A program made the translations under genes and the position numbers. From Luteibacter sp. OK325 (GTDB lineage: Bacteria > Pseudomonadota > Gammaproteobacteria > Xanthomonadales > Rhodanobacteraceae): DNA of 64,000 bases. The number at the start of each line of letters is the position of its first letter. The first letter of the stretch is position 1. The notes beneath the pieces are model-generated. The model did no database searches, had not been told where the DNA came from, and saw nothing but the letters and a program-made list of their open reading frames with translations. Shown here piece after piece: positions 8,993 through 11,088 of the stretch. The stretch covers positions 1-64,000 of the forward strand of contig NZ_QAOX01000007.1 in assembly GCF_003050935.1 (NCBI RefSeq). Reading direction: 5' to 3'.

Positions 8993-9103
8993 CATCGCCG
9001 CTGAAGCGGCTCCCACACAAAGCGCCGGGGAATCCAAGGATAATGTGGGAGCCGCTTCAGCGGCGATGCTTTCCGCTTTCCGTGGGAGCCGCTTCAGCGG
9101 CGA
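8993..9103. repeat. REP-like palindromes, three copies
   Basis: Three copies of the family 'GTGGGAGCCGCTTCAGCGGC': one reversed (8993-9016) and two forward (9044-9066, 9082-9103). The last is followed by gggtgcttgc, the tract that also follows the forward arm in the paired elements elsewhere in this window. They lie between the secreted-protein gene and the asnB leader. Confidence 0.9.
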
Positions 9104-9111
9104 AAGGGTGC

Positions 9112-9140
9112 TTGCATCGATCTCGGGATCATGCTCTATT
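9112..9140 (+). promoter_or_regulatory. Candidate asnB leader promoter
   Basis: TTGCAT (9112-9117) and TCTATT (9135-9140) are separated by 17 nt. The match to sigma-70 consensus is modest. A start point 6-8 nt after the -10 would fall at or next to the leader ATG at 9147, giving a leaderless or nearly leaderless leader peptide, which fits the absence of a Shine-Dalgarno sequence there. Confidence 0.35.
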
Positions 9141-9146
9141 CACCCC

Positions 9147-9215
9147 ATGATCCGCCTCACCGCCAATAACGCCAATACCAATAATGCCCGGAACCTCGGG
9201 AGGGTCGGCGTGTAG
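9147..9215 (+). CDS. Asn-rich leader peptide of asnB attenuator
   Basis: 22-codon frame, too short for ordinary gene calling, ending 116 nt before asnB. Six of 22 residues are Asn (residues 7, 8, 10, 12, 13, 16), and four of the six codons are AAT, expected to be the rarer Asn codon in this GC-rich genome. The stop (TAG, 9213-9215) abuts a segment that can act as antiterminator, and a strong terminator follows at 9244. Position, composition and structure match leader peptides of classical amino-acid attenuators (trp, his, leu, thr), with Asn as the sensed residue. No Shine-Dalgarno is visible; a near-leaderless transcript is possible. That it is translated is inference. Confidence 0.75.
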   Translation: MIRLTANNANTNNARNLGRVGV

Positions 9216-9277
9216 GCGGGTTAGCGAAATCACCCCACACACCAAAGGCCCGCCCTCACCAGGCGGGCCTTTTTCTT
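9159..9277 (+). promoter_or_regulatory. Transcription attenuator controlling asnB
   Basis: Three competing pairings can be drawn. Protector: 9160-9164 pairs with 9215-9219, and 9169-9173 with 9207-9211 (5 bp each), enclosing most Asn codons, with a small cccg/cggg hairpin (9187-9200) inside. Antiterminator: ggcgggtt at 9215-9222 pairs with ggcccgcc at 9247-9254 (six Watson-Crick plus two G-U). Terminator: 9244-9254 pairs with 9262-9272. A ribosome stalled on Asn codons would break the protector helix and leave 9215-9222 free to form the antiterminator; a ribosome reaching the stop would cover 9215-9222 and let the terminator form. The pairings were read by eye and their energies were not computed. 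Confidence 0.75.
9244..9277 (+). terminator. Intrinsic terminator in asnB leader
   Basis: A perfect 11-bp stem (9244-9254 with 9262-9272), 7-nt loop, then a U-rich run (ttttt-c-ttt). It lies between the leader peptide and asnB, pointing into asnB, so it would block asnB transcription unless disrupted. Confidence 0.85.
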
Positions 9278-9331
9278 TGCACCTTTCTCGTCATCAGTAA
9301 CTTTCCAGATACCGACCAGGAGTGACAGATC

Positions 9332-11002
9332 ATGTGTTCGATCTTCGGGATGTTCGGCCTCACGGCCGGCGACGACCTTATCGCCCTGCGTACGCAGGCG
9401 ATGGAGCTTTCCCAGCGGCAGCGCCATCGCGGCCCGGACTGGAGCGGCGTTTACGTCGACCAGGGCGCGATTCTCGTTCACGAGCGCCTTGCCATTGTCG
9501 ATCCCGCCAGTGGCGCCCAGCCGTTGCGCTCGCCGGAAGGTGATCTGGCCCTGGCTGTGAACGGCGAGATCTACAACCACCGCGAACTGCGCGCCGCCAG
9601 CGACTACGCCTTCACCACGGGCTCCGACTGCGAGGTCATCAACGCGCTCTATCGCGAACACGGCGCAGGATTTCTTGGCCAGCTCAACGGAATTTTCGCC
9701 TTCGCCCTCTGGGACGCCGGTCGCCATCGCTTCCTCATCGCGCGTGATGCGCTCGGCGTCTGTCCGCTGTATTGGGGCCACGACCGGGCAGGGCGCCTTT
9801 GCGTGGCCTCGGAGATGAAGTCCCTGGTCGGCGTGTGCGCGGACGTGGCGCCATTTCCGCCCGGCCATGTTTACGACAGCGAGACGGGCGAGGCGGTGCG
9901 GTTCTGGACCCCGGCCTGGCGCGACTACGACGTCACCGCGGGACGAACGATCGAACCGAAAGACCTGCGCGCGGCCTTCGAAGCGGCTGTGCATCGGCAG
10001 ATGATGACGGACGTGCCGTACGGCGTGCTCCTGTCCGGCGGCCTTGATTCATCCCTTGTCGCCGCCGTGGCGGCCAGCTTCGCGCGTCGCCGCATCGAGG
10101 AAGACGACCGCGGTGAGGCCTGGTGGCCGCGCCTGCATTCGTTCGCCATCGGCCTGGAAGGCTCGCCGGACCTGGCGGCTGCCGAGGTCGCCGCCAAAGC
10201 GTTGGGCACCGTGCACCACGGCTTCCGCTATACCTTCGAAGAAGGCCTGGATGCACTGCCCGAGGTGATTCGCCATATCGAAACCTACGATGTCACCACG
10301 ATCCGCGCGTCCACACCCATGTTCCTGCTAGCGCGGCGTATCAAGGCGATGGGTGTGAAGATGGTGCTCTCCGGCGAGGGCTCGGACGAGATCTTTGGCG
10401 GCTACCTGTACTTCCACAAGGCGCCTTCGGCCCGGGCTTTCCACGAGGAAACCATCCGCAAGCTCGACGCGCTGCACTATTACGACTGCCTGCGCGCGAA
10501 CAAGTCGATGTCCGCCTGGGGTGTAGAAGCACGCGTGCCCTTCCTGGATACCGAATTCCTCGATATCGCCATGGCCTTCGACGCCGAAGCGAAGATGGTG
10601 GCCCGCAAGGGCATCGAGAAAGGCATCCTGCGCGAAGCATTCCAGGGTGCGCTGCCCGAGGAGATCCTCTGGCGACAGAAAGAGCAGTTCAGCGATGGCG
10701 TGGGGTATGGCTGGATCGACGGACTGAAGGCCCATGCCGAGGCCATGGTCTCCGACCGTGAGTTCGCCGCGGCCGCCGCCCGTTTTCCGCTGAACACGCC
10801 GGCCACCAAGGAGGCCTTCTTCTACCGGACCCTCTTTGAGAAGCACTTCCCCGGCGAGGCCTGCGCCGCGACCGTGCCCGGTGGCAAGTCGATCGCCTGC
10901 TCGTCGCCCGCGGCCCTCGAATGGGATCCCGCCTTCGCCGCCGCCGCCGATCCCTCCGGCCGGGCCGTCCGCGGCATCCACCAGGAGGCCCTGCCAGCCT
11001 GA
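9332..11002 (+). CDS. asnB: Asparagine synthase (glutamine-hydrolysing), AsnB type
   Basis: 556 aa, full length. It converts aspartate, glutamine and ATP to asparagine and glutamate. The N-terminal class II glutaminase domain has the nucleophile Cys2 (MCSIFG) and RHRGPDWSG near residue 31. The C-terminal synthetase domain has the PP-loop pyrophosphatase motif LLSGGLDSSL near residue 233, plus VLSGEGSDEIFGGY. The ATG at 9332 is preceded by AGGAGTGA (9318-9325). The gene stands alone, with an Asn-rich leader peptide and terminator upstream, so it is probably controlled by attenuation in response to charged tRNA-Asn. Confidence 0.97.
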   Translation: MCSIFGMFGLTAGDDLIALRTQAMELSQRQRHRGPDWSGVYVDQGAILVHERLAIVDPASGAQPLRSPEGDLALAVNGEIYNHRELRAASDYAFTTGSDCEVINALYREHGAGFLGQLNGIFAFALWDAGRHRFLIARDALGVCPLYWGHDRAGRLCVASEMKSLVGVCADVAPFPPGHVYDSETGEAVRFWTPAWRDYDVTAGRTIEPKDLRAAFEAAVHRQMMTDVPYGVLLSGGLDSSLVAAVAASFARRRIEEDDRGEAWWPRLHSFAIGLEGSPDLAAAEVAAKALGTVHHGFRYTFEEGLDALPEVIRHIETYDVTTIRASTPMFLLARRIKAMGVKMVLSGEGSDEIFGGYLYFHKAPSARAFHEETIRKLDALHYYDCLRANKSMSAWGVEARVPFLDTEFLDIAMAFDAEAKMVARKGIEKGILREAFQGALPEEILWRQKEQFSDGVGYGWIDGLKAHAEAMVSDREFAAAAARFPLNTPATKEAFFYRTLFEKHFPGEACAATVPGGKSIACSSPAALEWDPAFAAAADPSGRAVRGIHQEALPA

Positions 11003-11011
11003 TACAACCTT

Positions 11012-11088
11012 GTGGGAGCCGATTCATCGGCGAAAAGCCAACGGAGCGGTGATGCCATGACCCCTCTCGCCGCTGAAGCGGCTCCCAC
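11012..11088. repeat. Facing pair of REP-like palindromes
   Basis: A forward copy of the GATTCATCGGC type (11012-11033) faces a reversed copy of the GCTTCAGCGGC type (11068-11088), 34 nt apart, between asnB and prfB. The outer arms gtgggagccg/cggctcccac could pair into one long hairpin and may end or stabilise asnB mRNA. Confidence 0.85.

Follow-up and report, generated by a model that had tools for sequence, protein, structure and literature searches.

A probable asparagine-sensing leader-peptide attenuator in front of asnB in Luteibacter and its relatives

Leader-peptide attenuators control the trp, his, leu, thr, ilv and phe operons of Proteobacteria through a short ORF rich in codons for the amino acid that the operon produces, followed by a competing antiterminator and an intrinsic terminator. 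The 2004 paper of Vitreschak et al. reportedly deals with trp, his, leu, ilv, thr and phe and leaves Asn out. In Firmicutes, genes for Asn are preceded by T-box elements, which sense uncharged tRNA-Asn and work through a terminator; these elements bind the tRNA directly and have no leader ORF. Some leader-peptide attenuators have no untranslated leader of their own: according to two reports, the transcript of Sinorhizobium trpL starts at the start codon of the leader (PMC7298713) and several attenuator leaders of Streptomyces lividans are leaderless (PMC8079986).

It had been stated in the initial annotation of the locus studied here that no described leader-peptide attenuator sensing asparagine was known. 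A full-text literature search agrees with this statement, which is still unproven, key subscription papers lying outside the search. In the main text, neither "asparagin-" nor "asnB" occurs in PMC2965389, PMC1262725, PMC2659441, PMC8079986 and PMC8632094, and neither "asparagin-" nor "Asn" in PMC1183508. For the AsnB2 of Xanthomonas, qRT-PCR values are unchanged in one table of PMC3771888.

The window analysed here is a stretch of 64,000 nucleotides from Luteibacter sp. OK325 (contig NZ_QAOX01000007.1, positions 1 to 64,000). We consider, with a probability of roughly 0.9, that the leader of its asnB gene is a ribosome-mediated transcription attenuator sensing the charging of tRNA-Asn. The logic is that of the trp, his, leu, thr, ilv and phe attenuators, from which the locus differs by its amino acid and gene (Asn and asnB), its probably leaderless start and the position of region 2, mostly inside the leader codons. 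It also differs from the leaderless leaders of Sinorhizobium and S. lividans, which sense Trp, Leu, Ile and others, whereas the leaderless start of the asnB leader is predicted. The architecture, its conservation in frame and the concerted change of its RNA arms are established by sequence comparison; translation of the leader, stalling and altered read-through are what we infer. The features of the locus are the following.

9112..9117, + strand, predicted -35 hexamer TTGCAT (consensus scoring, alignment with relatives)
9135..9140, + strand, predicted -10 hexamer TCTATT, 17 bases behind the -35, with a predicted transcript start at or next to 9147
9147..9215, + strand, leader ORF of 22 codons with six Asn and without Shine-Dalgarno site (sequence; Asn enrichment kept in relatives)
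9160..9173, + strand, region 1, around the first Asn codons, predicted to pair with region 2 when the ribosome is absent (folds)
9198..9222, + strand, region 2, putative antiterminator arm (sequence, comparison of arms, folds)
9244..9272, + strand, regions 3 and 4, intrinsic terminator with an 11-bp stem, a loop of 7 and a T-rich tail to 9279
9318..9323, + strand, Shine-Dalgarno-like AGGAGT of asnB (sequence)
9332..11002, + strand, asnB, asparagine synthase B (glutamine-hydrolysing), 556 aa (NCBIfam PRK09431.1, 835 bits)

The leader ORF runs from the ATG at 9147 to the stop TAG at 9213-9215 and encodes MIRLTANNANTNNARNLGRVGV. Its Asn codons lie at 9165 (AAT), 9168 (AAC), 9174 (AAT), 9180 (AAT), 9183 (AAT) and 9192 (AAC), and reading of the frame bears out the 22 codons with six Asn, four of them AAT, that had been claimed. 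Likewise, the perfect 11-bp terminator of the initial annotation was recovered (9244-9254 with 9262-9272), and asnB does lie directly downstream, its score of 835 bits standing well against the NCBIfam cut-off of 499. None of 200 shuffles of the 224-base stretch folds as well as the native sequence (z -3.61). The elements expected of a ribosome-mediated leader-peptide attenuator are thus found at this locus, namely a short ORF enriched in the codons of one amino acid, an intrinsic terminator between leader and structural gene, a gene behind the leader that makes the leader's amino acid, and a competing antiterminator arm with co-change, the latter seen as complementarity in the best-fit register and not by RNAalifold.

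In the proposed mechanism, transcription would begin at or next to the leader ATG, with the ribosome trailing the polymerase. When Asn is ample, the ribosome would pass the Asn codons to the stop and cover the arm located in or next to the last leader codons, so that the terminator would form and asnB would be left untranscribed. When Asn is scarce, the ribosome would stall in the Asn run and leave the arm free to capture the emerging 5' half of the terminator, and the polymerase would continue into asnB. The gene content of the strain bears on what such a leader would sense. No further asnB match was found in the genome at E <= 0.001, asnS is present (627 bits), and gatB has no match in a search that finds it in 12 of 14 control genomes. 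Asn-tRNA should therefore depend on free asparagine only, and what the leader senses would be the product of its own target gene. A link between asnS and the leader was dropped, since asnS occurs in 222 of 250 genomes of the order and does not discriminate.

The asnB relatives of the GTDB collection were used for comparison, the best 80 of 472 forming, with the window, 81 close loci. Upstream regions were scanned with a strict detector that requires a short ORF with no fewer than four Asn in a span of 14 codons, and a terminator behind its stop. The window and its relatives were positive in 76 of 81 cases, and a rule relaxed to three Asn and a weak T tail makes all 79 close loci with enough upstream sequence positive. 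Three of the strict-test misses are of this kind, L040 and L048 having three Asn and a terminator, and L079 three Asn, a 15-bp stem and a weak T tail; L047 and L057 are cut by contig ends that leave 123 and 60 upstream bases. Examples of leader ends are LNNNANNNTRNHGRAGV in Dyella and NNNNRANNNANRWRARA in Rhodanobacter. One locus, L017, is titled Candidatus Eremiobacteraeota, with an asnB (82%) and a leader that are Dyella-like; its contig is probably misbinned.

Within the order, 171 of 250 genomes have asnB at E <= 1e-100. We added 76 further upstream regions, 40 of them taken at one or two for each genus, with more for a few genera, and 36 mainly from family f2; 75 came from these 171 genomes, among the matches listed, and one from a class-wide survey. 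Fifty-four were strictly positive and three more had three Asn (total 57), leaving 19 negative. Homologous leaders without Asn enrichment, which the initial annotation had named as evidence against attenuation, were searched for in this way: every examined region with an asnB at least 74% identical to that of the window and enough upstream sequence proved to be enriched. The 19 negative regions belong to asnB of 60-71% identity, a range that includes one positive region, L148 (65%).

Positive regions belong to f1 (the family of the window), f2, f3 and one genome of f8, and the system is confined to these three families and one outlier genome among those sampled. L001-L080 were assigned to f1 by ourselves, L074 excepted (f2); the f2-type leader of the named Luteimonas locus L074 makes it probable that f2 is Xanthomonadaceae/Lysobacteraceae. 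The fetched regions include two negatives in f1 and two in f2, all with an asnB of only 64-65%. These are L119, L120, L132 and L139 (G067, G227, G091 and G237), where this asnB is the only one of a genome within a leader-bearing family; asnB may possibly have been displaced there together with its control. L148 (G082) is the sole f8 genome with a leader, MFAIYNTINTTNNRLLRSAGSF, and a terminator, before its 65% asnB. A leader was found in none of 20 additional f8 regions (two with only 95 and 325 bases upstream), hence in 1 of 27 overall, and the leader of L148 may stem from transfer, be a relic or have a separate origin. The class-wide survey, of 274 genomes, found asnB of this type in four; one of these, L200, comes from outside the order and has no leader. 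No such leader precedes E. coli K-12 asnB and four asnS used as control upstream regions.

The detector fired in 0 of 1570 dinucleotide shuffles (ten per each of 157 upstream regions). Set to Asn, it fired in 130 of 157 regions; set to other amino acids, it fired in 89 for Ala, 62 for Arg and at most 6 for any other, the Ala and Arg counts arising because these residues share the ORFs in GC-rich genomes. A plain terminator preceded by an unstructured A-rich spacer, with Asn codons as a by-product and Asn not sensed, is an alternative, as Asn codons are A-rich and an unpaired stretch ahead of hairpins could be useful by itself. However, the leaders contain 873 Asn in 3484 residues versus three Lys (one AAA, two AAG), so the stretch is not merely A-rich, and its A-rich codons are almost all Asn and kept in one frame. 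Moreover, the downstream gene makes asparagine, and AAT is enriched relative to asnB, making up 426 of 873 Asn codons in the leaders (49%) versus 75 of 583 (13%) in the asnB genes of L001-L080, and the window alone has four of six versus none of six. We therefore regard the spacer explanation as very unlikely indeed, and retain attenuation by a translated Asn-rich leader.

The competing arms were described in the initial annotation as a single segment behind the leader stop, 9215-9222, with two partners. This segment (GGCGGGTT) pairs with 9247-9254 (GGCCCGCC) through six Watson-Crick and two G-U pairs, and in the predicted fold the five bases at its beginning are paired to 9160-9164, where the Asn-codon region starts. 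The position behind the stop stands for this strain but not for most relatives, in which the conserved arm is formed by the last leader codons (about 9198-9210 in the window); among Luteibacter loci, only the window and L010 have GGCGGGTT behind the stop. The sequence GGCGGGCC, or a close variant of it, occupies the last codons of most f1 leaders and is complementary to GGCCCGCC of the terminator; the f2 arm makes up to 13 pairs (GGCCGATGCGGGT with ACCCGCATCGGCC). The best ungapped duplex score was 21.3 with their own terminator versus 15.1 with f2 terminators for f1 leaders (83 loci), and 26.7 with their own versus 17.6 with f1 terminators for f2 leaders (48 loci), in registers that are best fits, a choice favouring pairing. 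As the search in the leader went no farther than four bases past the stop codon, the eight-pair arm of the window was scored as five.

The concerted change can be followed at single positions in 135 loci. The base before the CCCGC core reads, in the order 5' arm, leader, 3' arm, G:C:C in 74 loci and A:T:T in 20; in the remaining loci it makes a G-U pair with the leader (21) or is unpaired with it (20). The base behind the core is Watson-Crick with the leader in 116 of 135, with several pair types, and pairing with the leader falls farther from the core (82 and 61 Watson-Crick of 135). The core itself has a T with a leader A in two loci, L140, where the 3' arm also has A, and L137, where the terminator retains a G-U pair. 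Absence of covariation was the other finding that had been named as adverse; on the compared sequences, the leader arm and both terminator arms change together between families. RNAalifold on alignment A1 gave the terminator only, in which both partners change in four of 11 pairs, with little covariation credit; the arms were therefore compared by scripts. Pairing is uneven between loci. Luteibacter loci are mostly weaker, nine of 13 (the window and L001-L012), window included, showing GGCGG:CCGCC or equally short pairing in the searched stretch, and some duplexes elsewhere go down to four pairs (L070). L031, L050, L052 and L066 show a leader-terminator complementarity of 11-13 bp, which exceeds the f1 core.

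The lower part of the antiterminator in f1 was set aside as a main argument, its preference for the own partner being uneven among leader types: Rhodanobacter-type leaders scored 15.4 with their own partner versus 11.1 with the Dyella type, Dyella-type leaders showed a slight preference (15.6 versus 14.4), and the mixed remainder none (12.1 versus 13.5).

In a model of ribosome position, a ribosome with a 12-base footprint was set on each leader codon in turn, and the RNA lying downstream of it was folded after truncation ahead of the 3' half of the terminator. With the ribosome on the Asn run, the 5' half of the terminator is predicted to be paired upstream with a mean probability of 0.86 (at least 0.5 in 135 of 135 loci). 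With the ribosome at the stop, pairing is zero, as a consequence of the assumed 12-base footprint covering region 2 and not of folding. Shuffled leaders often pair too (0.47 on average, at least 0.5 in 565 of 1080), which makes the model supportive but not decisive. When the ribosome is placed far upstream, the window and L004-L010 show low pairing, the behaviour of a classical attenuator. A classical attenuator should terminate when no ribosome is nearby, yet antitermination is what the model favours there in most of the other leaders.

The leader might instead act as a functional small peptide or as a trans-acting terminated RNA, control of asnB being secondary, as there is a precedent in the leader RNA and peptide of the Sinorhizobium trp attenuator, according to PMC7298713. 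However, the peptide is unconserved outside the Asn run, its tails (GRAGV, RWRARA, RPMRDC) differing by clade and tracking the pairing arm, and the leader keeps its place directly before asnB. Trans-action as the main role thus appears very unlikely, an added role of the peptide or RNA being compatible with control of asnB in cis by attenuation.

A covariance model built from A1, which contains 42 of the 81 leaders picked for diversity, gave 62 full-length matches of at least 39 bits in 62 of 250 genomes, all directly before asnB, among the matches listed. That such a model finds asnB leaders is expected, and the informative part is that nothing else scores as high: a full-length match away from asnB had 38.0 bits (G039). 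Matches below 39 bits mix further asnB leaders (G082, 36.1) with matches elsewhere, mostly pieces of terminators. The control of Asn genes by T-boxes in Firmicutes would make a T-box, a riboswitch or another RNA binding tRNA-Asn or Asn directly, without translation, a conceivable explanation. Yet no Rfam family reaches its gathering score within the 64-kb window, be it the T-box or the amino-acid operon leaders (Thr_leader, Trp_leader, Phe_leader and others); the best weak match in the leader region is Thr_leader, with 27.5 bits versus a gathering score of 55. Conservation is moreover seated in the codons and the competing arms, which argues against an RNA of this type and makes direct binding scarcely credible compared with sensing through translation.

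In alignments of the upstream regions, TTGC is followed after about 17 bases by a -10-like hexamer and, at a constant spacing, by the leader ATG; the interval between ATG and Asn run varies between loci, while that between promoter and ATG does not. A first comparison used the best-scoring of several start codons and was repeated with a promoter located independently of the ATG. In 122 of 135 loci (80/83 in f1, 40/48 in f2 and 2/3 in f3), the predicted transcript start then fell at most three bases from an ATG or GTG in frame, compared with 9.4% for random positions. Shine-Dalgarno-like tetramers were found at four of 134 leader starts, all inside the predicted -10, versus 112 of 135 asnB starts. 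A stricter promoter scan listed no site in the window region. From these predictions, the leader is probably leaderless.

New here are the amino acid, Asn, the lineage and the probable leaderless design. We think it likely that these loci represent an undescribed Asn class of leader-peptide attenuation, ancestral to the family of the window and that containing Luteimonas, with a leaderless transcript whose promoter fixes the start codon, and a counterpart of T-box control in Firmicutes. If so, asparagine would join the amino acids sensed via ribosome stalling on a leader peptide, and the control of asnB would be accounted for in a large bacterial group. Two families with different RNA sequences and the same switch would offer a natural test of switch evolution, and the predicted leaderless start is a further design point that can be tested.

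A REP-like 22-mer, GTGGGAGCCGCTTCAGCGGCGA, occurs at 18 places in the window with at most three mismatches (0 expected), including three copies just upstream of the asnB promoter (8995-9103) and two just behind asnB (11012-11088).
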